DNA from: Aureococcus anophagefferens
Taxonomy: Eukaryota > Sar > Pelagophyceae > Pelagomonadales > Pelagomonadaceae
Reading direction: 5' to 3'
Assembly (NCBI RefSeq): GCF_000186865.1
Contig: NW_008705597.1
Location: forward strand, 133,094-197,093
Length of the DNA stretch: 64,000 nucleotides
Both the position numbers and the translations under genes were made by a program. Of this stretch, positions 1-64,000 are shown piece by piece; positions within the stretch are counted from its first letter, which is position 1, and each line of letters starts with the position of its first letter. The notes beneath the pieces were generated by a model. That model saw only the letters and a program-made list of their open reading frames with translations, ran no database searches and was not told the DNA's origin.

Positions 1-350
1 TGCGCCTCTAGAAGAGAGATTCCGAAAGCAGACTGGTCCAAGCCTAGTTGGTCTACACTCATAAACGATCCATATGTCGCTGATGGAGATGCGGCCGTCA
101 AACTTGTCAGCCATCGTACGCCAGGCACGTGCGAGTTTGTTATATGCGCACATGACGACAGCAAACACAATCCAAAACTGGAGTTCAGTGGCCCTGCAAG
201 CTGGATGTTCCACGCTCCAACACGCGCAACCCCACATTCTTGCCATCGAGACGAGATTTAGTGCTTCAAACACGCCCGCTCGACTAGCGCTACTAGTGCC
301 GAGGTCGTCGCCGCGCTTTGGCTGTCACCGACCTCCGAAACCAAAAAACT
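1..350 (-). CDS. Ketosynthase N-terminal part (cut by window edge)
   Basis: Minus-strand reading near positions 75-1 gives the KS N-terminal signature YGSF...LGLDQSAFGISLLEA, the stretch just before the DPQQ motif in the other KS domains of this locus. The window ends before DPQQ. It follows an ACP, as in every module here. Confidence comes from the match to sibling KS domains (for example near 57.2 kb). Confidence 0.75.
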
Positions 351-3300
351 TGCGACAGAATTGAGTGTGGGATGGTCAAACAGTAATGTTGGAGACATCT
401 CAAGCCCGGATGCTCAAGAAAGCTTCATCGTGAGCTCCGCAGTAGAAAGAGAATCCACACCGGCCGACATCAACGGGACATTTGAGTCCACGAGAGTACC
501 CAAAACCTCCCAAACAATGGACCGTACCAGCGTGTGAGAGTCGTGACCAACGCCTGGTGTTCATGATGCCGCTGCTTACTGGCTGGAAGCAACATCATGT
601 AATTTCCCGCCTTGGGGGCTGGATAGGCTCCTCGACAGGTATCTTCCAGATGGATTGACTCGGAATGGGGCTACGATAATTATGTAGTGCAGCGTGCGCG
701 TCAAGCAGAGCATGGCTTTGAGCAGCAACGAGAACAAGTTCCTCCGCGAGTCTTTTCCTACTTGAAGCCGCGTTCCGCTAAATCACCCGTCCACTTGGGG
801 CGCACCTAGCAAAGCTGAGCACGGTGGCGAGTATCCCGGGCCCTCTGGGTGAAGCTCGCTAATCGCGCAAGCGGCATTGGACAACCTTCACCTGCCAATA
901 GCGGCTTATTTTGCACTCGTCTGCACTCAACCTAGCACACGGCAGCACCTTCCCCTCGAGTCCCGCCCAGGCAGCGCAGTAGCAAGCATGCTGTCTGACT
1001 GCAATCTCGATCATGGATCTCACCCGCTCCGGCAAGCATCGGGCTCTCTGGTGTTGAACATCGAGCCTGTGGAGACTCGCGAGTGATCAGCTTTGGTCAG
1101 AACCCAAACAAGCGCCGCCTTTGCACCGACCGACGCTCTCTAGGCCCATATCCCCGAGAGTTCCGTTGCTCTACACCTACTCCCGAACTCACAGAGGAGA
1201 TGGAGTGAAGCCACCCTGGTAACGGTCACCAGTGCAGCTGAGCGATGATGACGCATCACCACAATAGAAGCATGGGTACTCGAGATTATCAAGGTATTAT
1301 TTTATAACATGGTAGATCTTGTGGTTGGTTCAGAGAGAGCTGGAGAATAACGCCCTGCCCCCTGATTGCCAAGGAGACTAGATTACGAAGCGCGACAAAA
1401 AGACCCTGCCGTCCCAATCCCGCTTCGTAAGTTGCGTCATCGTGCACACGCAAGCGAACCGAGCATTCCGTGTGCGATGGTTCCACTGAAGCCGAATGAG
1501 CTCAGCCTGGAGCTTCGCTTGCGGCCATCCGTGGCTACTACGTATTTTCGAGTACACAAAGGACCCGAAGCGGGCACAATGTCAGTAGGCATGTGAAATA
1601 ACGTTCGTGCTACAATCGATCAAAGGTGTGTATTTAACCTGACAATTTCATTGATTACAATTTTGAAGGAAGATGCTACTGTACTGCTTAAGTTGCGCAT
1701 TGACTGTTACAATGAAGGCACAGACTACGAGAGAGGCAAGACCTGCGGCGGCAGCAGATGCCTCTTAGTGACCCAAATGTGACTTCAAAGATTGGGCTTA
1801 TACAGTCTACACCTTTACCAGCCTTAGCAGGGCTCCGATGGCAGCCCCGACCTACGCACGCATGATAAATCTCATACGCGCATCGAGCTCAGCAAGACTT
1901 CGATTGGATCTCCAAGTATCGTGCCTGTGCCATGGGCCTCCAAAACATTCTCAGTAACAGATTAATCCCGCACAGTTGTCATCAGTAGTCACTTTTATGA
2001 TGATCCATTTGGTGCAGTAAGACTTGCACTCTGACCATCTTACTGAACGGCTGATCTTGAAATGGAAAGCTCGCCACAGAAGTGTATCAGGTATGTAATT
2101 TGGCTCTCTCCACGACAATATCCATCTGCCTACATGTCGAACGTGTGGCAGCGTCCAAGAGGTGACAGCATCCCCGCCGCCGAAAAAGCCAGGAATCCAT
2201 CCCGCTTCAATAGTCCTACGCCAGTTGATATGGCCTGCGTACACTCGCTTTGCTCTAGAGCTGATTTCGCTAGATGCGTTGTCACTAGAGTTGAACAACA
2301 GGCAGTGTCCAGTCCCATGCAAGGGCCAATCAGACCATACAAAAATGATATGCGGCCAGATGCTACTGAAAGGAGCACTGACGTTCCTGCATACATTGCG
2401 ACTGCAGTCATGGGTAGTCCCTTCTCCCGCTCTGAAACATCTCGATTCGCGGTTAGCGCCCCCATTCCCAAGTAAACGCCTATGCTTGTGACAGAGAAGC
2501 AAATACCAGCAGTTGACTACAGTAGGATCAACTGTTGAGGATCAGCGGAGGTGGCTTCAGCGTGCGACATGCCACAGGTCTCAAGCTAAAAAACATTAAA
2601 GCTGCCATAAGATGATAAGAAATCAGGATCCCATCATGAAAAGGGGGTCCGTCGCTTGACTACTAGACCAGATTCGAGTAATTGCGCTAGTGAACTTCAG
2701 GAGTGAAGGCGATCTGGGAGACTCATCGTAAAATCTTGAATAGCCACGCGCTGTGTGCAAGAGCATTTTGACTCGACCTTCGTGATGATAGATTCTTACT
2801 TCGTTCAACACAGAGCGATTACAAGAGAAGAGATGGAGGTGGGAGTGGGGTGGTCAAATGCTAGTGTTGCAGGAATCTCAAGCGAAAGGTGATGTTACAG
2901 AGATCATCCTAGTTTGAGAGTACCCAGGGAGGTCAACCCAGCCTCTACCAATGGCTGTGCTCCACCAACCTCAGAGCCAACAATCTCAATTATCGTGAGA
3001 TTAATTCGTTCCACAATCTGGTCGAAGTGGCTATGGTCAGGAGGTTTAATTTTGGCAGAGACGACAGAGCTCATTTAGGGAGGTCCAGGTCTACTGTGTG
3101 GCGGCTGCTCAGAAATCTAGGATGGCTTTACCTGCAACGCTTTCACAGATTCGATGATGGACAGGATAGAGTGGGGATTGCATAGCGTACTGGTGTCACC
3201 ACAATCCTCGCCATGGACGATTTTTTGTACAATTCAGCGCATGTATTTTCCTGTCATGGTCTCCGGAATTTCGCTGATGGTCACAAACTGTGACGGTGCC

Positions 3301-5110
3301 GCATATTCCCCAATGTCCACAACACAGTTACTTTGTAGTCGTCTTTCGTCTTCGAGGGACAACTCTGCGCCTGGCATGAGCGTGATGAATGCCCACGGGG
3401 TCTATCCTGTCAAGTCATCAGAAACTCCAACTACAATGCAGTTGGCCACTGGCGATGTCTGCCGGAGCTTGTCGCGCAACAGACTTGCCTCTATTTATCC
3501 TGTGCCAACCCGATGCCCGTTGACATTCAGCACATCATCAGACCGTCCATGCATAGAAAAAAGGCCAGGTCCGTGGAAGATAGCAACGTCACCTTAAAAA
3601 AACACGGGCTGCTTAAATCAATCGAAGTACGTTCATTTAAATCATTTCGCATCGCCTCTCCAGTCTCGATGTCCAACAACTCAAACGTCTCCCCATGTTG
3701 TTCGGGCCATGTATGGCCACGGTGCTGTGATGACTGCTTCGCCCGTTTCTTTTGCGGTTGCAGGTCTGAACCCACCCCGTCAATCGAGGTGATCAGTTGG
3801 AACCCACGACGAAAACGAAATCCATGGGTAGTTGTACATTCGAGTGTCTGGCTTTAAAGGCTAGTGAATATGTCCATACGAACAGCTCAATACCATACCG
3901 CCATGCTCAGTTCCCCAATAGGAGTTGATGTAGTGTGGCGTGATGTGCAACATTCCGAAGAGCTAAACTGTTGGAGAGCATGGTTCAGCACAAAAGGTCG
4001 CCACCTTTAGGCTCGACTTGTCGTATTTACACAGTTCTGCGGCTCCAAGACTGTGCGACATCAAATATTTGAGAAACGCCACACCCCCTTTCAAAATGGA
4101 TACGCTGAACTACTAAATCATTGCGGCGAAGCCTGCTACGTATGGGGAAACAGGATTAGTCTCGGTGATGAGGCTTGTGAGACGATTTGCTAGGCTACCC
4201 GCCAGCATGTAAGTCTGGCCAGTAATCCACCCGAACGAGGCAAGTACGAAAATCACGTCCCTGCCCGGGACGACATCAAAGCTACATTGCATTGTCATCA
4301 TTACACCGGCAAGATATCCGTGCGCATGGACAACGCCCTTCGGCTTCCCCGTGCTTCCGCTTGTATATATGATGAACAGGGGGAAATTTGCCTCCACGGG
4401 GCGAGCGGCATGCTGGGGTAGGAATAGTCTGCTCTACCCCCAATCTTCTTGCGTGGTCAAAATATCAGCATCTTTTAGGAAATCTTCAACTACAATGACT
4501 TCAAATTTTGTACGCATCTATTGGGCTCGCTGGATAATGCGCGCAATCATCTGTGGTTTGAATATTCGGTGAAGGACAAGCTCAAGATCCACAGCGGACA
4601 CAGTGATTGAGTCCATTAAAAGCTTTTTCAGCAAGACGAGTCACTCAGGTTCCAACCTTTAATTTTAAAGTTCTTTCAGCAAGGATGCTGTTGGGTGGAA
4701 ATGTGACGCGACTTCCAACGCTGTGGATGTGCCTTAATCTCCACTTACGAAGAGCGCCTTGGCACCAGTGTCACAAGTTCAGTCTGAAAGCGACTGTGCA
4801 GGAGTTATCGGAGGCATGCATGCATAAATAATACCCAGCCTCTTTGCAGACTCGATCAAACAGATGCCACTCAAATTTGTGGGAAACATAAAAATAAGAC
4901 GATCTCCAGCAACCAAACCACGATTCTTCAAGGCCGAAGAAGCTGCCAGACATCCGAGTAGTAAACTTGAGTAGGACTGCGAATGCGACTCTTCTTTGTG
5001 GTCGATGACCGCAAGTGCACAACCATACCCTGAAAGGATATGTCTATCGATCTCGTTGAACGCTATATTGACTGCACCACCTGAATACCATTGAAAGCAC
5101 GGGCTTAGAG
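1..5110 (-). CDS. Gene M2 (partial): loading AMP-ligase / ACP / KS / ACP / KS polyketide synthase
   Basis: Inferred minus-strand gene running off the left edge. Domain order 5' to 3': acetyl-CoA-synthetase-like adenylation domain (about 5110-3195), carrier (3030-2815), KS (2760-1450), carrier (535-355), start of a further KS (350-1). A CoA-ligase plus carrier at the front is the usual logic of a loading module, so I place a gene start here, just downstream of the thioesterase that should end gene M1. Introns at 1852-1898 and 1639-1684 interrupt the KS. In-frame TAG and TGA occur in all domains. The true start codon is not resolved; nothing decisive is seen between 5110 and 5600. Confidence 0.55.
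355..535 (-). CDS. Acyl carrier protein domain (gene M2)
   Basis: Minus-strand frame shows VLGTLVDSNVPLMSAG then VDSLSTAEL and [11 protein letters not shown], the carrier-protein pattern with Ser of the (G)xDSL site for phosphopantetheine. One in-frame TGA lies after MKLS. Downstream is the start of the next KS. Confidence 0.88.
540..1440 (-). other. Unassigned linker between KS and ACP
   Basis: About 900 nt after the KS C-terminus at 1450. I recognise no domain on either strand. Because stops may be sense here, open frames are not informative. It could hold a diverged modifying domain or be a plain linker. Confidence 0.4.
1450..2760 (-). CDS. Ketosynthase domain (gene M2)
   Basis: Beta-ketoacyl synthase that elongates a carrier-bound chain by decarboxylative condensation. 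Visible in one frame after removing two introns: YGSF, ADPQQLILL, ASGRISF, GLDTACCSTL with the active-site Cys, [15 protein letters not shown] with catalytic His, GDPIE, [14 protein letters not shown] with catalytic His, [14 protein letters not shown]. An in-frame TAG sits where other copies have Glu or Gln after LILL. Intron 1852-1898 splits DPIE/VGA and intron 1639-1684 splits NAQLK.../LNTHL. Confidence 0.9.
1639..1684 (-). other. Intron, 46 nt, GT-AG (KS, second conserved position)
   Basis: On the minus strand GTACAG...TGTCAG interrupts the codon before LNTHL (phase 2). Removing it rejoins NAQL with LNTHL. Confidence 0.8.
1852..1898 (-). other. Intron, 47 nt, GT-AG (KS, first conserved position)
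   Basis: Minus strand GTCTTG...TGCGTAG between GDPIE and VGAAIGAL, phase 0, the same site as in eleven other KS domains here. Confidence 0.85.
2815..3030 (-). CDS. Carrier (ACP/T) domain of the loading unit
   Basis: Minus-strand IVGSEVGGAQPLVEAG, LTSLGTLKL and IPATLAFDHPT match a carrier protein; the phosphopantetheine Ser is in GLTSL (Thr replaces the usual Asp). It lies directly after the CoA-ligase domain and before a KS. Confidence 0.8.
3195..5110 (-). CDS. Acetyl-CoA-synthetase-like adenylation (loading) domain
   Basis: AMP-forming acyl-CoA ligase that would activate a short carboxylic acid and load the adjacent carrier. On the minus strand: WYSGGAVNIAFNEIDRH near 5070 (acetyl-CoA synthetase N-terminal signature), ALKNRGLVAGDRLIFMFP, IIYTSGSTGKPKGVVHAHG near 4350 (AMP-binding P-loop), SFGWITGQTY, YWGTEHGG near 3900, and the C-terminal lysine motif TGKYMR near 3240. 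In-frame TGA at 3234-3236 follows GKYMR exactly where this family has a second Arg. Several further in-frame stops occur. Substrate is not determined; acetyl is the default for the family. Confidence 0.87.
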
Positions 5111-5600
5111 TTTCACTTCACACTGTCTGGAACGGGGCCCAACTGCCCTAGCAGCAATGGGCACCCTCGATGGACCAACCGTTCCATGCGCTATCTTGGC
5201 TACGCGCTTGCCAGGATTTGTGTCTAGGGTGATACCAATGAAGTAGATGTTTCACCGTACTGCCGTAAAATTCAAGGTTCGTGCAGATCTGAGTTTACTT
5301 CGCCTCTGGGTCTAGGAGTACGGCGCGATGTAGAGTAGATTATTTCAAATCGGGCAAGTCTTAACCCAGATACAGGTGAGATATTGTGGACGCTACCGTC
5401 AGCACCGAGTCCTCGCGAGTGAAGACTTCGACATGTTTGGAAGAAAGCTACGTTCAAAAAAACTTGGAGCCATCGACAAGGCGTTGCCATCCGTAAATAC
5501 CATCAGGGTGGTCCCACGATAAGTAATTCGCTCTTCAGTAGAAATCCGGGCCGTCTAGCGTGGAGAAAAATGCAATCTATCCGACCACGCATGTGGTGCA

Positions 5601-6300: not shown

Positions 6301-9300
6301 TGCGGTAGTGTCTATATCACTGGACGGGGATCTTGATGAATCGGTTTTATGTCTTTGATAAGCAAGGGTATATCCCTCTGTAGTTGAGAGAGAGTGGACT
6401 GTGGATTTCCAAGTAGATCCTCATACTTGATTTGGTAGAAAGCTTCTGGCTCCAACTCGCGCCGACAGGATATGATTTTCTGATTGCAATCAGTCCACAT
6501 TTCTTCGATATTATACTGCTCAATACTCGAGATGCTATGTTCTTTCAGAAGGGTAGCAGGATGGCGAATCAAGTGCAAAAATACGGGGCAGACGAAGTTC
6601 GATGCCACCTTTCACATCCAATAAGACTGTGCGCTCGCAAGCCAAGCCACAGCGAGGATTCTCGGGGCAGTCCACTCGTGCAATGGAACATACAGCCCAG
6701 GGGACGTCCCGTAGGATTGAAACTAATATAAGCTTGTGGTTTCTTGGATATTCCGCACCAGCAACAAGAGGGTTTCATCTAATAAACGCACAGAACTTTT
6801 GCTATTTTGTATTTGTTCGTGATGCGTATGGCCCACTAACATGGTTGATACTCGCGACAAGTATTTCAAAAACTCGCTGCAGCCACTGTGAGGGAACGCC
6901 ACTATAAATGCTGTTTTTCGGGTTGGCTTCCTACTTTGAAACACATATTACTCCCAGATACAGCCCGCTGGTGATTGGTCTTGAGAATTAAGTTTGCTGT
7001 GTGAGGTTTGTAGTCGCACTTGGCGATCTATGTATACGCCGAGGTTCCGCAAATTCTGCTAGCCAACAAGCGTGGAGTCGTCTATGGTCACATCGAAGCG
7101 CTTCTAAACAGACCTCGCTAGGCTCTGGCTAATTTTACTATCAGATTACTATGTATGTCGCTAGAGAGTGACTACTAAAGTTTGCTCCACCTATTGCAGG
7201 GGCACATCATACACCTCTTCTATGTGCAATGCCAATGCTGCGATCGTTGGCGTGTCAAATAGTTACATGGGGGGGACTTAAATATCAAGCTACTCATTGA
7301 CATCATCCACCAACGCCTTGACTGAGCTAGACTTCAGACCCATGGCCATGAATGAAGTATGTCAATGAAACTTTCAAGCAGATGCTTCCAGTCGTGAGAA
7401 TGGCGTGTCCAAGTCACTGTTGGGACCGCAAAGCTCTTGCAAGAACTCCAAGACAACCCCACTCTGAATTTTTTGCTCGGTTTGCCCTGCACTACCTTCT
7501 TAGGCAGATGTTAACTTCTGCTGCATGCTACTGTTCAAGCCGGTACGCAATCGAGCACGGAAGTAAGAGGCAGTCTCCCCTCTGATTGCCAGTCACTATC
7601 AATACAATGACTGAGAGAACGCCCCGTGTGCAATGGTTCCACTGAACCCAAACGCACTCAACCGGGAGTATTGATCGTGATCATATGATGATCATTAAAT
7701 CAGTCCGACAGGCAGCTCGAACAATTACCCCGCCACAATCGAAGACAAATGAGTGTTCAACCTACAACGCTACGATAAGAGATAGTAGCAATAGGTAACA
7801 TTTGGAAAACAGCCTCAGCTCGGCGTTGGCGCTTACTTCTTGCGTGCAAATGACAAGAAAGGCCAGACCAACAGCAGCCGAAGACGCTTCCGAGTGACCC
7901 ATATTTGACTTCAAGGATGAGCATTGTATTTGCCGTTGTGTCCCAAATACTGGTTTGCACAGCACCCCAATCACAGCTCCTACCTGCAGTCTTACCCGTG
8001 GGAACTACCCCCATGTCATGTGCTTTGCACTTCGATGGGATCTCCGAGCGCTGTCCCTGTGCCATGTGCTTGAAGAACTTGACCAGAAACATGGTTGTCT
8101 CGCACGACCTCCATTAATCACCTCTAGGAGTAGCCATTCGGTGCTGTTAAACTCGCGCTGGCACCATTGTGCTAGACAGCAGAGTCGCGCAGCGCACAAA
8201 GGCTGGTATCACGAGCTTAAAGTAGGAGTGCAGCACATCCCTCAGCGCGACAATATCCGTTCGCCCGACGGTCAAAAGTGTGGCATCTTCCAGCCAGTGA
8301 TAGCATTGCAGCCACGGACATCGCAAGATTTGTTATTTGAGTCAGGATCTTAGTTCCAACCCCGATGCCATCTGTGCAGCTGTCTTGGACTGTGGTGGCG
8401 CAGAGATGCAATGCCGCCAATGCAGATGCGCACGCAGTATCAATAGAATAGCAGGAACCCACGAGTCCAAGTGTATATGAGAGTCATCCGGATGTTACTG
8501 AAAGGGAGCTGCCGCTCAACGAGTACAAACCCGCCTATTCGCTTCCAAGCCCGCTTACCTCGACGCCAGTGAACACTCCAATGCGTTCATGTGAAAAGAT
8601 ACGCGATGATGAAAATTGCAGTCTCAAAGTCGTATATCCCACCTCCAGCAGCATGACTTGCTGTGGATCAAGCAACTACGCCTCTGCGATAGAAATTCGA
8701 AAACAAACACTATCGAGGTTCAGCTAATCAATGTTCACAAAGGATCCATACGTGGCAGATGCTCTTTCTGATGAAACCTTCCACCGTACTATAGGGACGT
8801 GCTGATAAGTCGCCAGTGCGCACACTGTTTGCTCCTTGACCCCAGAATCCAATTTTAGTAACCCTGGCAGGGTGAAGCTCGATTATGTGATTAGCACTTC
8901 CAATTTTGCAAGCTACTGCTGTGCTTTTGTTTAAAGTCAATGCTGCTTTTCTTAAAGGAGCTCCGAATTGTGGCTAGCTTCAAACTCAGTTAGGATCTGA
9001 GCAATTGAGTCAATTGTCGGATGGTCGAAAAGCATTGTCGGTGACATCTCGATTCCGAGTTCGGTAGACAGGTTCTATGCCAGGTCTGTCGCGACAATCG
9101 AGTCCAAACCGGCGGACATCAGTGGCACATTCGAGCTGACCGATGTACTCAGTGTTCAAGCTACTATGGATCTTGTAATTATGTTGCCATCACAACACGG
9201 TTTCTGTCGTGCACTCCCATCACCACGGGCGGACGTGATAAAAACCCGCTCTGCACACCGGCTTGCTTACGCCGCAAGAGGCTGGGGAAATTGCACTATT

Positions 9301-12300
9301 TTGATCTCAAGTACCAGATTTGGAGCTACTAGCATTAAATGATAGATACTCTCAGACCATGAGAATCTTCCAGGACGAAGGCTATGAAAGGCGCAGCTAC
9401 ATGCAAAATGTGCTTAACATACCAATATATATATGTACATTGAGCGCCGGTGATATTCCAATGCGTTTCAACGTTTTTCGACGTAACGAGTTTGTGTTCT
9501 GGGGCGAGTTTGAGCCGCGCCTTTTATATTGCTCACGCTTGGTAAGATCAGTAGAAAGCGAAAGCGGTTTCATGCCTACGCTCTTTTTCAAAGCCCTGCT
9601 GATCGCATCAGAAACAGGTCAACAGTGCGCACGAAGTTGGGACCGCATCACCATCTCGCTTAGCAGACCGCGTGACTCTGCGTTTCAGCGGGGTCAACTG
9701 GTCACTGCTCACGATAAAACGAACGTGCCAAATACGTGATGGATCATTTTGTAGAAGCTATTGGCTGAGGGAATATTGAACAAGTAACTTAACAATGTGA
9801 AATTGTTCCATTGAAGCCAAATGAACTGATACGACCCGAGGTGAGTTTGTGGTCGCCAACGTTCATCTGCACAACCTACTATACGGGCAGTTCGAACTGC
9901 GAGGAAACAATTGCCATCAGGTGCCAATTTAGCCTGCGCTAATATTGATGGCCTTTTGCAAAAGCCAGTCAATCATCAAACAACACTGACCGATTTAGCT
10001 GCGCATTCGCTGACACGCCGGACACGTCCAGAGAGATGAGCGCGAGTGACGCCAAGCCAGCAGCAGCTGCGGATGCCTCCAAATGACCCATGTTTGACTT
10101 CAGCGATGTACTCTGTAATATCCTCGAGCTCGCGCACAAGACCCCAATTGCAGCACCCACCTGCAAAAACCGTGAATCATAGAATATTGTCCCGCAGGAG
10201 TGCACCTCGATTGGATCCCCTAGCGCTGTGCCCGTGCCATGTGCCTCGAGTACTTAAGAAAGCACACAAATACCTTGCACGGCTTGGATCAGTCAGCGTT
10301 GGGATGATCCGTTTGGCGCTGTCAGGCTTGCACGCGGTCCATCTTGCTAGACCGCAGTACCAGCAAGTCCCTTCTGCGAGCTCGATGATGAAACTATGAA
10401 AGTTCCACAACCCTCACCACGGCAATATCCATCCCCACGATGATCAAACGTATGACATCATCCAAACAAAGACAGCATTCCAGCTTGTGCCGTCACAAAG
10501 TTAGATTGATCCGTCAGAACATTGACCCCAGCTACGATAGCAACCACGATCTAGCTTGACACCTCCAATATTGCAATGTGGAGCGCCACAAGTGTTGATG
10601 AACAGGCTGTATCAAGCGACACGCACGCACCTGTCAAGCCACAAACGAACGAAAGTCAACCTGCCGCCACGGAGCAAACGCAACCCGTCCCTGAGAAAAC
10701 ATTGCTCTCTCACAGGTGAGAGCCTGGCTAACTTTAGATCCCAACGAAGACGCCAGAAGGCGTTTGATGCAAATGGTCAAGCACTCGACTCCCTAATTCT
10801 AGGACGAGAATCTACTATGGGTCCATCACTCGAAGTTCCACCGCATGGACTTGCAAGGCTGGACCGTCAGCACAGAAGCCATCACATGTGAAGGCACCAT
10901 AATTGGCTGCTTCGACGTGTCCCACGATGTCCCAGCGCGCATGAGGTATGTTAGACGCAGCCACGAGACCCCCTGAACAGATCATATGCAACCCAGTCTT
11001 GACACTGATCCGCCCCGGTAGAGAAAAGAGGTTAGATTGAATATGTACCAGGTTCTGTTTCACCCGGGACTCTCCCTTGCGATGCACAGTCTTTCCTCAA
11101 CATGGAGATCCATTGACAAAGGAGATTAACGACTTTAATGTTGGATGATCAAATGCGATGGTAGCAGGCAGTTCGAGGTGCCATTCTATTTTAAGCTGGG
11201 TTATCAACTCTGTTGTCATGAGCGAATCCAGACCAGCACTTATCAATGGAATGTCGCCCGAGATCTGCGTGCCTATTAATGAAAGTACGAGTGAGCGAGC
11301 TTATGAATACCCTCCGCGACTCTATTAACAGGAGTCGTTGCGGCGACTCTATTGAGAGGAGTCGTTTCGATGTGCCTGATGCGTTAAAACTCCATAGTAT
11401 CACGTGAAGTGGTCAAAGATAATTCCAGAGCAGTCTGCAATGAGCAGTCTATATAGCGAGGCTATCGATTGGAATGCGATTTGTGAATTCGCCGCTTTAC
11501 GTGTGTGATTGCTGAACGATCCAAACTAATTGTGTGCGATTGTTCCACTAAAGCCAAATGAACTGATACGACCCGAGGTGAGTTTGTGGTCGCCAACGTT
11601 CATCTGCACAACCTACTATACGGGCAGTTCGAACTGCGAGGAAACAATTGCCATCAGGTGCCAATTTAGCCTGCGCTAATATTGATGGCCTTTTGCAAAA
11701 GCCAGTCAATCATCAAACAACACTGACCGATTTAGCTGCGCATTCGCTGACACGCCGGACACGTCCAGAGAGATGAGCGCGAGTGACGCCAAGCCAGCAG
11801 CAGCTGCGGATGCCTCCAAATGACCCATGTTTGACTTCAGCGATGTACTCTGTAATATCCTCGAGCTCGCGCACAAGACCCCAATTGCAGCACCCACCTG
11901 CAAAAACCGTGAATCATAGAATATTGTCCCGCAGGAGTGCACCTCGATTGGATCCCCTAGCGCTGTGCCCGTGCCATGTGCCTCGAGTACTTAAGAAAGC
12001 ACACAAATACCTTGCACGGCTTGGATCAGTCAGCGTTGGGATGATCCGTTTGGCGCTGTCAGGCTTGCACGCGGTCCATCTTGCTGGATGCTAGAATCCA
12101 CAACAGAAAGTTGGGAGTATTCTTTGCTCATCAAAAGCGTTCCCACCCCTTCTCCACGACAGAAACCATCGGCTCGAATATCAAAGGTCTGACATCACCC
12201 TCACAAGGAGAGCATCCCTCCCGCAGCGAAGGCAATCGACACGACAGAAGTCAACATTGAGCTGCCAGATATTGCAGCACGCGATGCTGAATCCACAGCG

Positions 12301-18460: not shown

Positions 18461-19130
18461 TATAGGCACCCATCATGCTGCACAGTCACTTACTCGCGGG
18501 CAGGAAGTTACTTAGTGTACACGTTATTTCAGGGCACCCGCAGGTGAGCTCCGCTTAGCCCCAGGTTTAAAAAATCCTGCCCGGGAAGGTAGACGCCTGT
18601 CGAAACAGGCGACGACTTTCGGATTCATATCCATGTACCTTCATTTTGTACTTCATATAGAATAATTTATTAGCTCCGTACCGTTGCTATGACGCCAGTC
18701 AACCACTATCCAGCAGGCAACGGATGAATTTACGACACATAATGAGCGACCAATATCCATACTAGGATTAAATACTCTCCTGATACTTATCTCCCTTTTA
18801 ATCTTTGTATATTACAACAAAGCTGCGTCGACCGCAACAAAGCACATCAACAATGCTCTGCAATGTGAATTGTGATTATAATCATGTTGTCCTAGAGTTT
18901 GATGTAAAGAACATTGTTACATCAATGATTATGCTGTTCGTAAATCAGTATTGGCTGATGTTACAAATATCGGATTCGGATATGGGCCGGAAAATACTGC
19001 TGCAAATATTAAAAGTACAACAGAGCACCTTTGGCCATCTCCGCCGCCACCCGGACCTACACTGGGCCCCCTTCCAGATAGAGCATAAGGAGCGAGTGTC
19101 GAATAGGCTGCAATAATAAGATAGCAGCTG
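18461..19130. other. Divergent intergenic region, AT-rich part
   Basis: No domain recognised. A perfect 7-bp stem with 4-nt loop (CGCCTGT-CGAA-ACAGGCG) lies at 18594-18611. As the gap between leftward gene M1 and rightward gene P1 it should hold promoters for both, but I cannot assign elements. Confidence 0.5.
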
Positions 19131-20950: not shown

Positions 20951-21149
20951 TCATTGTTGCAGTACCCAGAGGTGTAACAAGAATACAGCTTTTCCAATGC
21001 GTATGAGAGCATGGTTGTTGCGAGTGAGTACCTGTCTTTGTATTCTGTAGCAGAACTGTCGGAGACACCATCTTCTCAGCCAAAGACAACAGAGCTAAAC
21101 ATCTGACAATGTAGACCTCTTGAGAGGTATTCACATATTTGTGACAGTA

Positions 21150-49300: not shown

Positions 49301-52300
49301 GGCTTATCTTGGATCTTGCTGCCTGCACAATGGACAAAGTGCGACGTTCACCGCCTTGAACGGATCGTCTCAAAGGCACTTGCTGCGTCGCGTTGGAGTA
49401 ACGGCAATATGCTTTGTAGAAGCTCACGGAACTGGTACGTCTCTTGGCGATCCAGTGGAAATCAGCTCGCTGGCTAGTGTATTTGTGTTACACTTCATCT
49501 CGATCACATCTGTCAAGGGAAGTCTGGGCCACACAGAAAGCACTGCAGGCACTAGTGGCCTATTGAATCTCGGCTACATCCTGAGGTACCAGTCAGCGGT
49601 ATGAAATCCCCAACTCCGGTAGCTGAACAATAGCATGCCAAATCTCATCTCCGGGAGAAATCTGCGCATGATGATAGAGTTGACCATGGCAACTTGTAGA
49701 CTATCGGGTGGAGTGAGCTCCTTTGGAGCCACCGGCATCATCGCACACACACAACTCACCATTGTTTCATGAGACAACATACGTCTTAGCACAAATTGAT
49801 CATAATGCCAACATGGTTCTGGATACCGCCGAGCAACTAGGTGGTAAAAATTGGATGTGTGACTTCATACTGGTACTGGAAATGGACACGACTCATGTTG
49901 TAGCGCAGCGGTACTCACAGGCCCTCTGTCGGCAATGGTCATAATGAGTTTATCTGACCACGTGTTAGGTGATAGCAACGTCTTCCCCGGTGTCGCCTTC
50001 ATCGAACAGGCTTGCGCATGCAGTCAATCCGTGATAGATTCCAGGTACACTTTGAAAGATATTAAGTTCGTAAACCCCTTCATATTCTCTCAGTCTGCCT
50101 CCTCCCAATACGCCTTGTCATATACGAGACAAAACACCGGGGCTTTTATGATTGACAGCCATGGTTCCATGCAGGGTTTTAAGCCTACGCGTTCGAGCAA
50201 TGTGCTCGGAAGCTTCCACCAATCTAGACTTGGGAGTCAAATAGACGGAACGGATTAATCTCTAGGCTCAAAGACACATATTTCAAGGGTGTCAAGGGTG
50301 TCTATCATGTTCATTGTAAATTAGTGACCCTCCACTTCGTCACGACACAACCCAAACGTCAAGTAAGAAGACTCTTTGAATGTAAAAATGAAGATGCCTG
50401 CATCGTGTGCCATCTGATCACTCATGAACGCTCCAGCCAAACTGACTGGACAAAGTAGGGCAAATACTTTCTCACGTTCAAGAAGTTTCATCTTTTTGAG
50501 ATATAGCCGCCGCCGCCTGATGTGAATAGAACTATTCCTGGAGTCTTTATCTATCCAGATTAGATGATGACAGTATAGACCACGCGACTCTTCCCTGGCG
50601 AAGGCCAATCAGAATCCTGCCGCAAGAATTTTATTTTCAGTCTCGGTGTTAGATGTTTGAAAAACTCTGATCAGTATGCTACATCAGGACTTGCTGAGGT
50701 GACCTCGGCAGAAAAAAAATGCCCCACGCTCCCCAGGCATGGTAGCATCTCTTCCGTAACATGCATGTATGCAGAAGAAGACCGTGTAAAAACTATTACT
50801 GCTAAATTCAGGCTGAGAATGTTGAGATAAAGAAAATATTCTATATAATGTTGCAATCCCAATTTTGGAAATCCTTGGAACAGAAATCCCAGAAGATGCG
50901 CCATTGATGGGAGCTGGTCTGGATTCAATTGCTGTCACTGAGCTCTTTTAATCAATCAGTGAGTCGCTGAGTACCGAGATGCAGCCCCTGGTACTATTTG
51001 ACCACCCGAGTATCAGAAGTCTCAGCTGATGCGTCTGGGACCTATGAATTCAATCACCTGGAAAGCACATGTGGAGAGAAAATATGAACGGCTGGACGCA
51101 CAACAATTACTACGGACGTTTAGCAGTTGCCAGCAAAGCGTAGCGTATCCCGGCTCACAGCATTTCGGGTCTGTTACAGGGAGGCTGCGTGACAGGTTGA
51201 ATTGTGCCCATTTCTCGCTGGAATTCTGATATGATCAATATGTCAAGGTTTGGTACTAGCGCAAACTAGCGTGTTCAATATGGATCGTTTTTGGATAGTG
51301 ACTTTACATAATTCGACAATGTCGTGTTTTCCATGGCCTCGGCTGAGGCAGTATCATTAGAGCCACAGTAGCGAATCTTGCTTGAGGTAGGCTATGAGAC
51401 CCTAAGTTAATTTTGCTCTTCGCGTTCAATACTACTCAACCTGGGCACAGGAAACTTTACTGGAATGATGAACATGGATGCTGCATAATTGCTGCCTTCT
51501 GTCCCAGGGCCGTTTGACATGACGGGTATCAGCTACTCTGCGGCTGGGGCTCGCCTATCCTATGTGCTTTCGCTTCGGGGACCATGTGTGATCTTTGATA
51601 CAGCCTGCTCTTCAAGCTTGGTTGCAACTCACGTTGGGCGTCGCTGCATGTAACACAGTGAGTGCGAATACTCGTTAATTATCGGACCCAATGCCATACT
51701 GCACCCAGCGGCTCATATTGCGCCTGCTTTCGCTGGGATGACGTCTATTTGTGGTCGCTGTTTTACGTTTGACTCTCGAGCTGATGGCTATCTTCGTGGT
51801 GAAGGGTGCGTCGGAGTCATGCTGGCCAACGAGGAAGCAGAATTACCACAAGGTGTGTTGAGATCCGCTGCTCGCCACAATGGGCAAAGCACGAGCTTTA
51901 CAGCACCAAATGGATTGTCACAGTAACTTTTGCTATGAACCACCATCGATGATACGACTACTTTATTAGATGGTATGGTTGAGGCTCACGGAACAGGCAC
52001 ACTTTTGGGTGATCCAGTGGAAATCGGTGCGGTGGCGACCGTCATCTCCACCAGCAAAGCATGTGTCATTCTCGCGCTCAAGGGGAACCTCGGGCACATG
52101 GAATCAACTGCAGGAATATCTGGTGTTCTCAGGATTCTCATCGGCTTGCGTGAATACCATGTTGGTCGCAATGTATAATTACACGAAGTGAACCCTCAGA
52201 TTTCACATCTGTTCTTATATTCTAATTCAATATTGTAGACTTGCGATACATTGGCGATACCAGCACTAAGACAATGTTGACATGCGAGGGTCAGCTCATT

Positions 52301-55300
52301 TGGGTGGAGTGGAATCATCGCCCATGCGGTTTGTGACCATGGAGAAATCCTGGCCTCCGCTAGGCAGAGAGGCACATCGGTCTACTTCTCTTTGTATCCC
52401 ACCAAAAGAGGACTTGTCCGCGGTAGCGAAATCAAAGATATCGACTCCCATCATACCTACTTTGCACACCCTTTGCAAGAGAGTACCATGAACTTTTAGT
52501 TGAGGTCGGACAAGGTGTATTGTTTGGAAGTATTCTCAAGATGAGGCATCGCACTTTCCGATCATGTCGTGGCCGGTAGCACCCTATTTCCCGGGGTAGC
52601 TTATGTCGAGATTCCACGCGCCTGTGGAGAAACAGGGCCGGCGTTTACCTCTGTGTAAATTTTACGACCATGCCACTTACTAGGCTGATGTACATTGTGA
52701 TACACACGACGAGGAAGTACATTCTCAATTTAGAGAGGCGGGGGTGCAATGCAGAGTGTCAGCTCTACCCTAAACGCCACCGGAAGTGTCTTCTGTGGAA
52801 ATTTGTTCCCGCCTAATTTCCAAATTAATTATGCTATACTGCCTCTCATCTGCGATCACGATTTACAGTATCGTCTCTCGTTTGAGATGAATCACATGCA
52901 GGCCGATGAGTGACTCCGGGGTCTCAACAAGAAAGAAGTCAGGGTCGGTAGCGACAGACCGTGTCGCACGGGCGTTCATTGATCACCCCTCGAGAGGCGT
53001 GCGCGGGCGATAGCAGTCAAATTTGCGCACATGTGCTAAGAGTTGAGGATAGCCTTGATGGTGAATGCTTTCACGTATTCTTTGTCCAAATGAAGGCCAT
53101 GATATTTGCTCTTCTAAAGCCAGCTCAAGAGTATCTTGTGCGGCTGATTGTGGGCGCAGCTTTAATCATTGCAGCATTTTGTGGCACGCAGTTTCAACTA
53201 AAAGACCCCCAGAGTGCGGCTCTTTGTGTTTTGTGAAATGGACCGAGAAGTCATTGGGAGTCCCACTGATGGAGAACAGGTCATGTTAGAGCATAGTTGT
53301 TTTCTGAATTGTTCGAAATGCTTCCATCCTAGTCGAGTATGTGCATCTTCAGTAATCTCTTCTCCATGAGAACGGGGATACAAAAATGGGTGGATTAGGG
53401 ACCTTGAATTGCCGCCAATGTTTTCCTGCCTCTGCCGGATCTCAAAGTTGGAGATTACTCGGACACCTCTGTACATCATAGGACGCACTGTGGAGCTTAC
53501 ATTGAATGACTCGCCATGATGATTGCATCTCTATCCGGCATTGCCTCATCCTGGTCCTGGCTTGAAAGCTATGAGACTCGATGCAAATGCGAATTAATTT
53601 GATCTCCTGGCCGGTAAAATAGTGTGTCCGTTCAGTATTCTTTTATGTGGAATAAGGTGAATTCCAAGACACGGGCGCTCTGTGAGTTCCTAGACTCGCA
53701 TCCCGTGATCTTTGATTCCCTGAGCACCGCTGAAAAACTCCATTCACAGGGCCTCCGCTCGGGAGCTCTCATTTCCTGTCCCTACGCACCCAACCAAAAT
53801 CCGGATTTCTTAACTACCCAATAAACTTAGTCTAATCAGCGAGTTTGTCGATTGTTTTAGCCAACTGACAAGCACGGCAGTCTCATCCGACGCGCCACTC
53901 ATGTCAACTGGACTCGACTCTATCGGGGCCACTGAATTTTTAACGCAAATCGAATAGCGTATTGATACTGACTTCCCATCAACGCTGCTTTTCGACTATC
54001 CATCAGTGCGTTCCATTGCTAGCTATTTAGACGCGTGTTTCCAGAGCCAGGATACCGAGAGAGGCCACGGTGAGGTATTTTCATCTCCTGAATTGTTTTC
54101 AGGCGACTGTATCACACTCGAGACCACCACAGCTTTGCTTCCCAGCGCGTGTGGCACAATTGTAGGAGTTCACTCGCCACTAATCGTATCTTCTCTCAAC
54201 TCATTCGCAGCAAAAACATTGCGAGGGTGATTAGCGACAGCTTTACCGCAGACGCTCCTGTTCGACCACCCGAGCGTCGGAGGAATAGTGAGCTTTGTTT
54301 CGAAGGATTTTGTTGCTTCTAGCAAAGTGGGGCTGTTCAGTGATTAGCCCGCACACCATTTCGCTGAAGCGACTAGCGCGACATGACTCCTCGGTTGTAG
54401 CTTCATTCTGCCTGGGCCATCGTAGATTGGTTCTGGATTGAAAAAGCTCGTGACGAATGCTTGAGTAACGAATTCCCATGTTCCCCTGGTGCGTTGGGAA
54501 AGGTTGTGGAGTGGCCTTGTGTCAATGTCATACGGGTGTTTTACCGAATTCTCATCAGACGCAGCTGCTTTTGGAGTTTCTAATGTAGAAGCTCGGGGCA
54601 TGGACCCTTAAATGCTTGTGATCCTCGAAACAAGCTACCTCATGATTGGCGCATATGGCCACCAGTTGTCACCCGGAAGTACGCCAGTCGGATATTTTCT
54701 CGGTGCTGGCGGTGCTTTCCCGAGCGTGGGCGCTGATACTGTCCTAGGAGCCCCCCCAACCTACTCGGCAACTTCTGGGGCTCTTTCAGTGGCGTCTGGT
54801 CGTGTCTCGTACACGTTAAGACTCACAGGTCCGTGTTTGACCTCGGACACAGCATGCTCTTCATCACTTGTTGCGCTGCACTTGGCAGCGTCGAGTATGA
54901 AGCTCGAGGAGTGTACTGTAGCCGCAGCAACGGGCGTCGGGATGCTCGCACAGGTGGTATCACGGACCTTTTCAGTGTTGGGCATGCTTTCTAATCTCGG
55001 CAGGTGTCACACATTCGATTGTCGAGCAGACGGATACTGCCGAGGAGAGGGATGTGGGACCTTTCTACTCGTTATGGACTCTGAAATTGGAGCGGCTCGC
55101 CTTGGTTCTGCTGTGCAGTAGGACGGTCCGAGCGCGAGCCTAACAGCACCAAATGGGTGATCCCAGAGGTGACTGATTTAGGCTGTTCTGAGATATTGTT
55201 CTCCTGCGTGTGCCCTGGAAGCACACGGCACGGGTACAGCCCTCGGGGATCCGATTGAGGCTTGTGGCTCTCTGAATCTTGAGCATTCATCAAACGACGC

Positions 55301-58300
55301 TCGTTCGCAGGTCGGCGCTGCGATTTGGGCGCTGTGTAAACCTGGAAATGAGAGCATGCGTCGAGTTTAATGCGCCTCTCTGAAGTCCAACATGGGTCAC
55401 CTGGAGGCCTCCGCGGCTGCTGCGGGTCTCGCTGCGCTTGTACTGGTGCCTCTTAGGATGTTCATGATCTCGGCCAATGCGCAGCTGAATCAGCTCTCCT
55501 TCACATGTGAATTTACTGTCATCTGCTCTCAGTTTTCGGCCCAGGTTAAACTCGCACCTATCTTCAATCGTAACGTCAAGATTCGAGTTGCCTAGCGAGC
55601 TGGCACCCCGAGACAGAGACGAATCGGGGCATCGCGCAGGCCGACTGAGTTCGTTTGGGTTCAGCGGGACCATCGCGCACGGGGCCTTTTGATATTCTTT
55701 TGGCATACGGCAAAAAAAGCCACGAGCACTATCACATTTCCGTGCTTAACAGCCAGCAGGTTTCAACCAGCTGAGGCTCTCCAAGCTCCAATTTCCAGTC
55801 ATGGGCCAACGAGGTCTCACAAAGTTTTGTTTATTATGCAACGCTGATTTGTGATGGTGGTATAACACGAGTATCTGCGGCAGCACTCACTGAGTAGTGC
55901 AGGTTAACACTCGAACTGTCTAGCTATGAGTGTGCTTGACAAATTTTAGTGCCACGAGTCTTCGTCGGCCATTTTTTAGCTGATTGATTTCATCAGCCAC
56001 AGGACTATCTCAAGAAGTCAAGGCGCGCCTAAGCACGATAGTTGGCCCGCAATCCTCGACGGAGGACACAGGCTCTCCCTCAAACCTCGCTGAAGAGCAG
56101 TGATAACCGCACACCGAGATGGTTACATTTCAAGAGGAGTAGGGCACGCTGAAGGAGCATCGGGTTATTTTGGTCATTGGCGAAATGAACTACTTGTGCA
56201 ATTTTCTCACATAAACGTTCATTTGATATTCATGATTTTGCTACCTGCGTGTATCTATTGAGACTCCCAAACACTTGTAATCACTCACGCTAAGAAACAA
56301 AATACTAGTTCCGTGTGAAACTCTGGATCTCGTGTTTGTATTCCTGTGTCTATTAAACCCAAGATTGCCGTTTTGATCACCGTTTTGGACTCTGAGATGC
56401 ATCCAAAGCTAGTCTTCGTGTCAGAAGATGATCATCTGTTGTTCATAAATCGTGTCGTCAGGAGGCCATCCATACAGAGACTCGAGCAACACTACAGCCG
56501 ATTCTGAAGACATGCTAATGGACAGATAATCTGGGAAGGATTCGATCAAGATATCACAGCTAGTTTACAATCGCTGCTGTGACAGCGTAGGTTCTCTGAT
56601 TAGTGTTATTCTCATGATTCCAATCGTTGCAGTGTTTGCACATTGTGGGATCTTAAGGCTCGAAGAGTACCACTTATCCCTCTAGCATGCCAAGGATCAT
56701 CACAACATTTAAACTGATCTTGCAACGTTCGTGCCAAGCTCGAATTGTGTCAGCGCTAGGATGGTATGATCCATCGTGTGTTGAGTAGTCGGTACGTCTA
56801 TTGGTCCGAGTACTCCGCTGATGTCTGTTGGGCTCGATTCCATCTCTGTGATCGAGCTCACCCGAGCGCTCTGCGTGGAGACTTGACTAGAGATACCAGC
56901 GACCATACTTTTCAGCCACCCCACACTAGACTCTGTGACGGCCTTGATGTCGTCTGAGTTTGATCACAAACTCTATGGGATGCAAACGCTGGTGTGTTTT
57001 GGACACGCAGGCCTTTCATGTGTGTCGTGCATGCCGCCACTTGAGCAAACTAGCATACAAGTGGCGATCCTATCAAAAAGCTACCAGCTAGCAGGGTCGC
57101 TGGGCTTTGATTCTCCATTGTGCCTGCTGTCAATCTGTGCGCATGCTACGAATTCAACCGTCCCGGCTGCACGATGGGTAACAAAAGTGTTTGAAGTCGC
57201 TGCGACGTATGGATCGTTCATGAGCCCCAACTAGTCTGGACTTGATACGGGTGCTTTTGGAGTCCCTTCCCGTGAAGCAAAAGTGATGGATCCACAGCAA
57301 AAGCTTGTTCTACAAGCTGGGTACAGCGCGTTGCAATGAGGTCATCCGAATATTATTCCAGAGAGAGAAGTGTTCCGAGATATCCTAGTCTATTCAGATG
57401 TTGGCGTCTTTGTTGGCGTCGAGCCAAGCGGATTCTAAGGTTGCAAAGAGGCTGGGTTCTCTGCAAGCAGTGGGGCCCTCTCCACCACCTCGGGTCGACT
57501 GTCCTACACACTAGGGCTTGTTGGCCCATGCTATTCAGTCGACACTTCATGTGCATCTTCGCTGGCAGCATTGCACATATGCGTCGTAACCATCGAGTGT
57601 GACAGAAATTTCTGACATGGTATTTGTGCAGGAACCAAGGTCCTAGGTGAGGCCACTAGTGTGCTGGTGTCGTTCGGCGGGATGACTTCGCTGTGTGGGT
57701 GATGCCACACGTTCGATCGCCGCGCTGACGGATACTGCCGCGGCGAAGGCTGCGGAGCTTTTTTGCTTTCACCACAGCCCTCACTCACCCCTGAAGTCGT
57801 AGTCCTTGGCTCGGCAGTGCAGCAAGATGGTCCGAGTGCAAGCCTGACTGCACCAAATGGCTTGTCGCAAAGGTGACTAATTGAATCAGTCCAAGATGAT
57901 AATACTCTCGCTCCAGGGCTGGAAGCGCACGGCACGGGTACAGCCCTCGGGGATCCGATTGAGGCTTGTGGCTCTCTGAATCTTGAGCATTCATCAAACG
58001 ACGCTCGTTCGCAGGTCGGGGCTGCAATTGGGGCGCTGTGTAAACCTGGAAATGAGAGCATGCGTCGAGTTTAATGCGCCTCTCTGAAGTCCAACATGGG
58101 TCACCTGGAGGCCTCCGCGGCTGCTGCGGGTCTCGCTGCGCTTGTACTGGTGCCTCTTAGGATGTCCATGATCTCGGTCAATGCGCAGCTGAATCAGTTC
58201 TCCTTCACATGTGAATTTACTGTCATCTGCTCAGTTTTCGGCCCAGGTTAAACTCGCACCTATCTTCAATCGTAACGTCAAGTTTCGAGTTGCCTAGCGA

Positions 58301-61300
58301 GCTGACACCCCGAGACAGAGACGAATCGGGGCATCGCGCAGGCCGACTGAGTTCGTTTGGGTTCAGCGGGACCATCGCGCACGGGGCATTCGTTTGCTAA
58401 GGGCATCTTGGCCAATGTGTTGCGTCTAGAGTGATTATATGTCTGTATCGTACTGAACAACAGGTGCGGTTTGGCAAGAGGCTGGCATTCATTTCGAGCT
58501 CAGCAAATAGCAAGTCCGCGAGTACTCATTTACTACAGAATGAAGCAGAAGGGTCAAGAATGATGTGCGTCTACGTGATTCTCATGCCGCTCGTGCTCAC
58601 TTCGGACTAGCAATGTCTTCGTGAAATTCGCTTCAACCTCGTATCACACACTCACGACAGCCTGCTTGGTTGTAGTCTAGACCTGTAAACAAATGATTGG
58701 ACTGTTCTCACACAGCGTCCTGTGCCAACAGTGATCGCGTGCGGTAGAATACATGACCACCATCATGCTCCAGTTCAGAAGCCCCTTTTTGAACTAGCAA
58801 ATTCGGATAAACATTTCACGAGCACCTAGACGCTTGGAGTGCTTATTCTTTGCGGTCATGGTCAGGTTGTGTTGTAGCTCCCAAGTAGCGAAAAGTGCCA
58901 TCAACTATCTTCTTGATTTTTCCTATTATCACTGGCTGCTCTCCTGAATGACGGTGAAGTTGGGACTCCAAAAGACATACTCGCAATCAATATGATGTCA
59001 GATGCGTAACACGGTGCGCGGTCGACTTATCTATACGGTGCAACGCTCTCGGATTAGGCTCCGCGATTCTTTGTCGCAGACGCATCGTCCCAGGATAATA
59101 GTGTCATGGCAAGTGGGATCCACATGTAGCGACGCAGCGCCTCATTGCCTCCGAGAATCGATGGAAATATGACCCTCAAACATGCGTCTGGTGGCATCGC
59201 CGCCCTGTCCTATTACGCTCCAGCCTTGGCTTTCTGAGCTTCCAACGCAGAAGCATTCCACATCAGTCCCGGCAGATATACGATTGGGCGTGGACAGGAA
59301 AACATAACTTTTCTGAGCGACAATGAAGACACCGTTTCGCTGGCATTATCGAGCCTTAGTTGACTACTTCGACAAAGCGAGCTAGCCTGTAAGGAGATTG
59401 GGCGCCTCGAGGTTGGCACGGAGAGTGCGGTAGATCGCGGCAAGTCCACCAAATCTTTTTTGATGTCATTCTTTGAAGCTGATGATAACCATGGTGTTGA
59501 AGGGGTCGACACATTCAACGCCTGCTATGGCGGGACCAATGCGTTATTCAACACCACAAACTGGATTCAGAGCCGAGCCTATGATGGCGCATATGCTGTT
59601 GTGGTCTGCTCCGACCCGGCGGTCCATCCGGATCCCGCTTATATCTCTGGCATCGGAGCGTCCTCGATATCTCTTGCCGCGGCTGCTTAGGCACCCTTAT
59701 CGCTTCAGCGAGAGCGCACAACCTTTATCAAGCACTCGTGGGACTTTTATCGGCCTGTTGGTTGGCACACAAATGACGCGATTATGGACATAATCATCGC
59801 AACAGGTCAATATGAGGAGGCAATGATGTGGTGCCAGAGTCAGTTCAGTGCCATAAAAGGATCAACTGACCTACTGTTGATGTCAAACCTCGTAGTGTAC
59901 CACAATAACGCTCCTTATCACTCCAAGAGGAACCTGAGGCTCATGTGTGAAGCGATGTATGGTAAACTCACCAAAGCTCAACACGAGGGATTGTTCCAGG
60001 ACCATGTTGAGGCTGGCATTGCCATTAGTGCCCAAAACGCCACCACCTACACGTGTCCGCTCTATGCTAGTCTACTATCACTGGCTCTGACGTCTCGTGA
60101 TAGCCTTGCTAGCCAACATATTCTGTGCATGTCGTATGGATCCGGCTGCGCCGCTAGTATGTATGGACTTGAGGCTTCTGCTACGCCCTTGCACACTTCA
60201 GATGTGCTTGCTAGTCTCTGCAGTCGACGGTAGAGATCGATAGAGAACGCCTTATTCTTTGTTAACACTTTCGAGATGACTCATGGATGATTCGGATACC
60301 AACCGTCACATTACAAGGGCCGTTAGGATGCAGCCTTTTACCTTGAGAGTGTCAGTTTGATAGGTGTCCGTACTTATGAAGCGTATTCTGCGGCAACTTT
60401 GCTGAAGGTAGACTCGCATGAATTTTCTCGTGTCGTCTGCATTGAGTTGATGAACGACTCCGTGACCGACTAGCTGCTTGCGGAGCTCATACCAGCCCTT
60501 GATCCGCATCGAATCATCGCTTTTGTATTTGCAACCGCGGGGGGTTGTGGCGTCGAAAGCGCCATAGCAGAGAGAGGCTTCTTTGGTGAGGTTGTCCATC
60601 GCAGTGGTTACCCAGTGGTATTTGCGAGTCATGGGCAAACATCAGGAGGGCACTTACTCATCCTGGCGGTCGCAGACCTTGTGCTTGCGACATCCGAATC
60701 CAAAGTTTCCTTTGCTCTAACGCGCCATCAACGCTATGGTATCATTCCCCTGGCGCTTCGTAGACGTGCTAGAACTCACCTCATTTGGCGGTGGGTGTTA
60801 CTTCTAGAGGAGCTTGATGCGGCCACAGCATAGAGGAGCGGGCTGGTCGACATTGTTACTTCGATTGAGGAAGAGCATAACTTACTTTTGTGTCTAGATC
60901 TGCTTCCAGAGTCGAAGGTCTCGAAGGGCAACATCCGGGGAGACTCCCTGGAGTTCGCCATGGGCTAGCAGGTTCCGATGTATCGCCTTGGAGTCATGAC
61001 CACCAATTCATCGATGCACATTACGCAACCACTTCGGTTTAGGTTTCCTCTGGCAGGGGTTGGGGAGATGATGGTGGACAAAGGCTCTTGCTCCGCTGAG
61101 TAGATGTACAACCTTCAGAGCAAAGGGGTCGATGGGACCCATGCCATGGTGCTGTGGATGGGTTCCGAGACTCAAGGAGCGCGCTTGGGTTTTCATGCTG
61201 ATGCAATTTTGCGACTGCGGAGCGCGGCCTTACAGTAGCGCGCATCATGATTCATTTGAAATACTCTCGCAGACCTGTGAGCTCCCCTGCTTGGTATTTT

Positions 61301-64000: not shown

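Follow-up and report, generated by a model that had tools for sequence, protein, structure and literature searches.

In a 64,000-nt stretch of the Aureococcus anophagefferens genome (the window; positions 133094–197093 of contig C37 in assembly GCF_000186865.1, which comprises 49,050,692 bases on 86 contigs, C and L labels denoting its contigs and loci), two divergent lines of polyketide synthase (PKS) and nonribosomal peptide synthetase (NRPS) genes carry in-frame stop codons throughout, 491 in the 16,546 codons predicted by a codon-usage path. In their evolution these codons almost certainly behave as sense codons, with TAA and TAG standing for Gln and TGA for Arg; this assignment, already made in the original prediction, is upheld by codon inference, conserved columns and paralog comparison of the sequences. 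Overall, the data are probably best explained, although with considerable room for doubt, by a recoded PKS/NRPS gene class in the pelagophyte nucleus whose stops would be decoded conditionally at the tRNA level.

A pelagophyte source is indicated by the tubulin genes, GT-AG introns and A. anophagefferens proteins among the best matches, and in a tree of KS (ketosynthase) domains the A. anophagefferens protein P0016 adjoins those of C4. Of the two lines, one runs on the minus strand up to ~18.4 kb and the other on the plus strand from ~20.7 kb. Ketosynthase (KS), carrier, condensation and adenylation domains follow one another in series along long frames, as expected for modular PKS/NRPS assembly lines, together with HMG synthase, ECH, dehydratase, zinc-dehydrogenase and hydrolase domains. 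The frames, predicted to be intact over more than 1 kb, proved even longer: nine full or partial minus-strand KS matches share one frame over bases 3–16499, and this frame holds 209 stops in 6,140 codons across bases 1–18420, including stretches called non-coding by the codon-usage path. Frame changes in the plus-strand line are partly due to introns.

Re-reading of the individual sites returned the predicted letters at 21 of 22 plus-strand places (stops and two sense comparators) and at all four on the minus strand. The DPQQ motif of the KS has TAG at 23909, 26152 and 51369 and TAA at 48795 and 54609; VQQDG has TAG-TAA at 21905 and TAG at 24440 and 55119; SQRRLL is written TAG-TGA-TGA at 21953 and TGA-TGA at 42110, against CAG-CGC-CGC at 31673; and TGA occupies GRLSY at 26356 and GRC(H/Q)TF at 57700, 26557 and 31440. 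The same agreement was found for the NRPS motifs A8 (GRIDFQ, TAA 30225), A10 (GKIDR, TGA 30498) and condensation-domain RHxxLRT (TGA 27813), for GRLEVGTE of the HMG synthase (TGA 35708), and for the minus-strand sites (TAG-TAG at 10812–10817, and 10347, 12396 and 3234). In the VQCTSLK column TAG 24685 and TAA 58072 are correct, whereas the CAA assigned to 34360 is at 34361.

For codon inference, a KS profile was built from 124 domains, of which database proteins supplied 114 and stop-free host frames 10, and the six-frame window was aligned in the manner of Codetta with X at each stop, log emission ratios being summed per codon. The KSs of the window recovered 60 of the 61 sense codons (AGG was wrong) and returned TAA and TAG as Gln and TGA as Arg, with leads over the next residue of 8.3, 12.2 and 21.7 nats, respectively. 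KSs on C34, C41, C45 and C52 gave the same meanings, again with 60/61 sense codons. A second group, C37out, includes L016, which lies inside the window, and the overlapping locus L012; the conclusion rests on the four-contig group. Beyond the KS, the acyl-CoA synthetase domain of the window gave TGA as Arg, TAG as Gln and TAA weakly as Gln (three codons), and its two HMG synthases gave TGA as Arg, a single TAA being uninformative. When 12 HMG synthase domains from five contigs were pooled (3,518 codons, 55/61 sense codons right), TAG was read as Gln and TGA as Arg. Sense-codon recovery together with significant alignment of a stop to a single residue was thus found for all three codons in the KS, and for TAG and TGA in the HMG synthase.

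The placement of the stops on conserved KS columns agrees with these meanings. In 53 GC-poor KS domains, which hold 292 stops in 13,917 codons, columns shared by at least 80% of the reference KSs contain 51 stops, 23 at Gln and 20 at Arg, with the rest at Glu (5), Ala (2) and Ser (1); Gln and Arg together make up only 303 of the 3,748 conserved cells. No stop falls on a conserved Trp (0/33), Cys (0/101), His (0/68) or Gly (0/553) column. The loci L012, L016, L004, L013 and L018, which overlap others, were excluded from this test and from the comparison by GC content at third codon positions (GC3) described below.

Paralogs were compared with KS matches of at least 200 bits and at least 250 shared columns, and the ratio of nonsynonymous to synonymous substitution rates (dN/dS) was taken from pairs with at least 0.7 identity (at least 0.6 for a GC-rich set). 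Across 15 pairs, which share domains and so are not independent, first-base C/T exchanges that make or remove a stop occur at 26%, as frequent as silent Leu exchanges (19%) and ~2 to 9 times as frequent as the missense ones (His/Tyr 10%, Arg/Cys-Trp 11%, Leu/Phe 5%, Pro/Ser 3%). Fourteen of the 15 recoded pairs have dN/dS of 0.08–0.33. The original prediction had named a combination that would speak against it, ordinary genes with stops only at their ends together with dN/dS near 1; the former is what the samples show, but the latter is contradicted by these pairs. Six GC-rich pairs lie higher (0.37–0.93), a figure that is not used as a contrast since a GC3 close to 0.95 biases the method. In longer alignments, a C37 copy and its C34 counterpart differ by 252 substitutions over 2,604 bp (dN/dS 0.34), and their only gaps, of 2 and 1 bases, lie five columns apart and sum to three, leaving the net frame unchanged. 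The ratio is 0.25 for L023/L027 and 0.37 for 54822–55687 against L040, with small indels in both, while L025/L029 gives 0.53 over the whole stretch, with many small indels beyond column 2,269, and 0.17 in its KS. The window also contains a tandem trio of near-identical modules (23378–24585, 33036–34693 and 43277–44594; 98.0–99.8% identity in aligned blocks, spacing about 9.7–10.2 kb). With the exception of the third tandem KS copy, missense changes and frameshifts do not accumulate as fast as silent ones, and stops exchange with their synonyms as silent changes do under purifying selection.

The recoding is probably restricted to one gene class within one nucleus. After matches below 40 bits were dropped, stops were counted by eye in 71 of 80 KS matches on C34, C37, C41, C45, C52, C55 and C77, compared with 2 of 45 elsewhere, both on C11. 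All 19 HMG synthase N-domain candidates were scored, with stops in 14/14 on the recoded contigs and 0/5 elsewhere. GC content is 0.50 in the window and 0.66–0.80 in the 12 long-open-frame KS loci and eight tubulin loci that were fetched. With rising GC3 of the KSs the TAG/CAG ratio falls from 0.55 to 0.01 and TTG/CTG from 1.13 to 0.25; as the first drop exceeds the second, GC-rich KSs avoid stops beyond the effect of composition. Two further stops in GC-rich loci belong to weak or marginal alignments.

Ordinary genes in the samples use the standard code. None of 17 tubulin matches carries a stop, and none was seen in ABC transporters (19 scored of 209 candidates), in AMP-binding domains (14 scored of 64, the window's own adenylation domains not among them) or in the readable exons of eRF1 (C31, GC 0.47). 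Among kinases, 125 of 358 candidates were scored, and stops occur in 7 of the 132 matches; in the six that were read, these lie only in or at introns, judged by eye, and five of the loci have a GC content of 0.45–0.50 and one of 0.59. Two open frames on recoded contigs are also free of stops, a retroelement frame on C34 (654 codons at GC 0.48, coding for RNase H and integrase domains) and a frame of 440 codons on C37 without a Pfam match. At the stop rate of GC-poor KSs, ~14 and ~9 stops would be expected in them, a comparison biased by the frames having been noticed because they are open. The sampled genes therefore do not share a genome-wide code, and the claim that stops act as sense codons, whose genomic scope the original prediction had left open, holds for the PKS/NRPS class and not for the whole genome.

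An alternative is that the recoded contigs come from, or were recently taken from, another organism, such as a related alga, with a genome-wide code of its own, in which case they may go unread in the present host. False stop reassignments are known to arise from contaminant contigs (PMC8629427), and the recoded genes do differ in GC content and codon usage and lie on other contigs than most GC-rich genes. However, the 1.4-Mb contig C11 includes one KS with 3 stops and another with 2; each has TAG on the DPQQ Gln column and TGA on a weakly conserved column led by Lys and Arg. In a tree of 173 KSs, recoded KSs fall in several clades together with those of C4 and C11. C34 bears, besides the retroelement frame, a kinase free of stops whose match on C49 is nearly equal, and in the GC-poor C37 a GC-rich stretch (L042, 281–282 kb, GC up to 0.81) has a 98% copy on C43 and a partial one on C75. 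Had a whole recoded genome been present, recoded tubulins and kinases would moreover be expected, and the counts above give neither. We therefore consider a foreign origin unlikely.

Slightly less likely still is a correction of the transcripts by nuclear U-to-C RNA editing, with CAA, CAG and CGA regained in the mRNA. It would yield exactly the three stop meanings, and editing of this kind removes stop codons in fern and hornwort organelles (PMC4915041, PMC12548569), with the same three codon changes in the former report. Here, in contrast, other T-first codons show no such use (0 TAY in 68 His, 4 TCN in 292 Pro and 1 TGB in 202 Arg cells, where Y is C or T, N any base and B is C, G or T). Editing would thus need to pick out stop codons alone, which makes it less likely than decoding by tRNAs.

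Another conceivable source of such codons is the decay of ordinary pseudogenes by C-to-T change, through CpG deamination or a process like repeat-induced point mutation, turning CAA, CAG and CGA into stops. Every stop can indeed arise from a Gln or Arg codon by a single C-to-T change, CpG is lower and TpG/CpA higher in the window than at the GC-rich loci, one tandem copy has a frameshifting deletion, and L025/L029 combines its dN/dS of 0.53 with many small indels in the outer part of the alignment. Under decay, however, TGC, TGT and TGG should arise from CGC, CGT and CGG at the frequency with which TGA arises from CGA. At conserved Arg columns of the 53 domains the counts are 28/19 for CGA/TGA and 109/1 for CGB/TGB (Fisher, 8e-11), which rejects decay as a general account. 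Trp columns keep TGG in 32 of 33 cases, His and Cys columns are intact, selection is evident in 14/15 pairs, and frames are kept over 9–18 kb. Third positions before AA, AG or GA have no excess of T, by which a motif-driven mutator was also set aside, and the sequence context around stops, viewed as frequencies only, follows no strong rule. Decay is accordingly very improbable, with recent partial loss in this strain being possible. Systematic base-calling errors, C read as T, can be dismissed almost entirely: some long-read data do contain errors at modified bases, but such errors are blind to codon meaning, whereas the Arg columns keep their CGB codons and the Trp columns their TGG, and C/T at third positions lacks a matching context.

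Several results weigh against a recoded class in one nucleus. In the window's HMG synthases alone, seven TAG lean to Asp; in the 12-domain set seven TAA tend towards Arg; and of the 19 stops at conserved HMG synthase columns, only five lie on Gln or Arg. As the references are largely, by name, mevalonate-pathway enzymes, these columns are of limited use for judging the PKS type, but the misfit stands despite this. Nine of the 80 KS matches on recoded contigs are free of stops, the youngest KS pair has a dN/dS of 0.57–0.64, a repeat of 99.6% identity carries too few changes for a judgement, and the third tandem copy is broken by a recent 340-bp frame-shifting deletion inside its KS. The linkage of the recoded contigs to the rest of the genome is one that we infer, and the assembly may be chimeric. 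As to decoding, no suppressor tRNA occurs among 37 tRNA genes, an incomplete list without any tRNA for Gln, His, Cys, Tyr or Asp; a DNA search with two tRNA-Arg genes found no relative with another anticodon; and eRF1, read by eye, keeps TASNIKS and YLCDNKF and looks canonical. The surroundings of the recoded genes likewise yielded no suppressor tRNA. Short introns seem to interrupt many tRNA genes (C26:395317–395422 in L076, and L070, L073, L077–L080 and L082), and the exons of the tRNA-Arg(ACG) on C26 match intronless copies on C5 exactly.

For the recoded PKS/NRPS class we propose the following. The genes are protein-coding, intron-bearing assembly lines, probably nuclear; in the samples, their PKS paralogs of high GC content keep the standard code, as do ordinary genes, and each stop takes the meaning of the codon with C in place of its first T. 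Normal tRNA-Gln and tRNA-Arg might read the stops through U–G wobble at the first position, or tRNA copies whose anticodon differs at a single base (UUA, CUA, UCA) might do so; wobble, changed tRNAs or editing would each give the observed meanings. An eRF1 that looks canonical, alongside hundreds of stops, suggests that reading is nearly complete during expression, and hence a conditional state: tRNAs at the ribosome would decode the stops effectively only in the cell state that accompanies expression of these genes. Stops could then accumulate freely in a gene confined to that state, but not in one that the normal state requires as well. Such conditional tRNA-level decoding is plausible, though we put it forward tentatively. 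With somewhat greater reserve, one nucleus may use two codes, the standard one for general genes and, for a biosynthetic class, one in which TAA and TAG mean Gln, TGA means Arg and no stop codon exists within the reading frame; a cell state would turn on the second, and the change of code would itself be the lock on that chemistry. Rare TTA codons in Streptomyces form a comparable lock on biosynthetic chemistry.

Reassignment of stops is itself already known. All three stops are reassigned in the nuclear codes of two ciliates (PMC4967479) and of Amoebophrya ex Karlodinium (PMC6394959). In Amoebophrya all three are likewise sense codons with TAA and TAG as Gln, but TGA is Trp, and the ciliate and Amoebophrya codes serve genes in general rather than, as in our samples, PKS/NRPS genes only. 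In Trentepohliales plastids, UGA and UAG are presumably Arg at about 40 positions in 11 genes (PMC8692980); the likeness is that UGA stands at conserved Arg columns of some genes while canonical stops end genes, and the differences are the organelle, UAG also being Arg, and nuclear UAG and UAA that mean Gln. Phages that use code 15, in which TAG is Gln, within standard-code hosts bring two codes into one cell, with genes unexpressible by the basic code (PMC9523058); unlike these, the present genes are nuclear and biosynthetic, involve all three stops and have no suppressor tRNA found nearby. Algal multimodular trans-acyltransferase PKSs are the same kind of synthase, and A. anophagefferens is named five times in their description (PMC4661987). 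No publication joining Aureococcus, polyketide synthase and stop codons was found, and the part of the literature covered shows neither nuclear TGA as Arg nor a nuclear code that applies to one gene class only. If translation is confirmed, the code would be splittable by gene class within one cell, reassignments would have a route to start that the organism survives, and large algal assembly lines would be escaping standard gene prediction.

Table 1. Features of the window, with one retroelement frame on C34
Feature	Position	Strand	Remarks
PKS assembly line, single frame	1–18420	−	extends past left window edge; in-frame stops on Gln/Arg columns
KS matches of minus line	3–542, 1896–3014, 8022–9173, 10197–11297, 11934–13163, 15087–16253	−	carrier domains also present
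Acyl-CoA synthetase (AMP-binding) domain	3133–4465	−	14 in-frame stops in 444 codons
FMO-like domain of minus line	about 17451–18050	−	
Stretch between divergent lines	18421–20700		non-coding by codon usage
340-aa open reading frame (ORF)	20028–21050		overlaps right end of 18421–20700
PKS/NRPS assembly line with HMG synthase and ECH domains	20701–63998	+	continues past right window edge
KS domain, first of tandem trio	23348–24586	+	
Likely GT-AG intron, 44 nt	24584–24627	+	in KS after GDPIE; positions counted by eye
NRPS condensation and adenylation domains	27675–30491	+	in-frame stops
KS domain, second tandem copy	33009–34247	+	99% like first
Likely GT-AG intron, 56 nt	34242–34297	+	same KS place in repeated module; positions counted by eye
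HMG synthase domain	35457–36582	+	12 stops in 376 codons
KS, third tandem copy	43277–44148	+	340-bp deletion shifting frame; junction near 43546
KS domain	48261–49472	+	nearest tree neighbour a C4 KS
KS domain	50847–52034	+	tree group with a C11 KS
Two KS domains (54117–55262, 56740–57966)	54117–57966	+	in-frame stops
Second HMG synthase domain	59145–60279	+	4 stops in 379 codons
Ty3-like stop-free retroelement frame	L104:3–1964 (C34:150003–151964)		on contig with recoded PKS genes

The stretch between the two lines gave no Pfam match in its three plus frames, and one ORF had no match among plasmids by BLAST. At the KS site of the two likely introns, the C11 KS of L004 is intronless. Beyond the right edge of the window, L040 contains more KSs of the plus-strand line.
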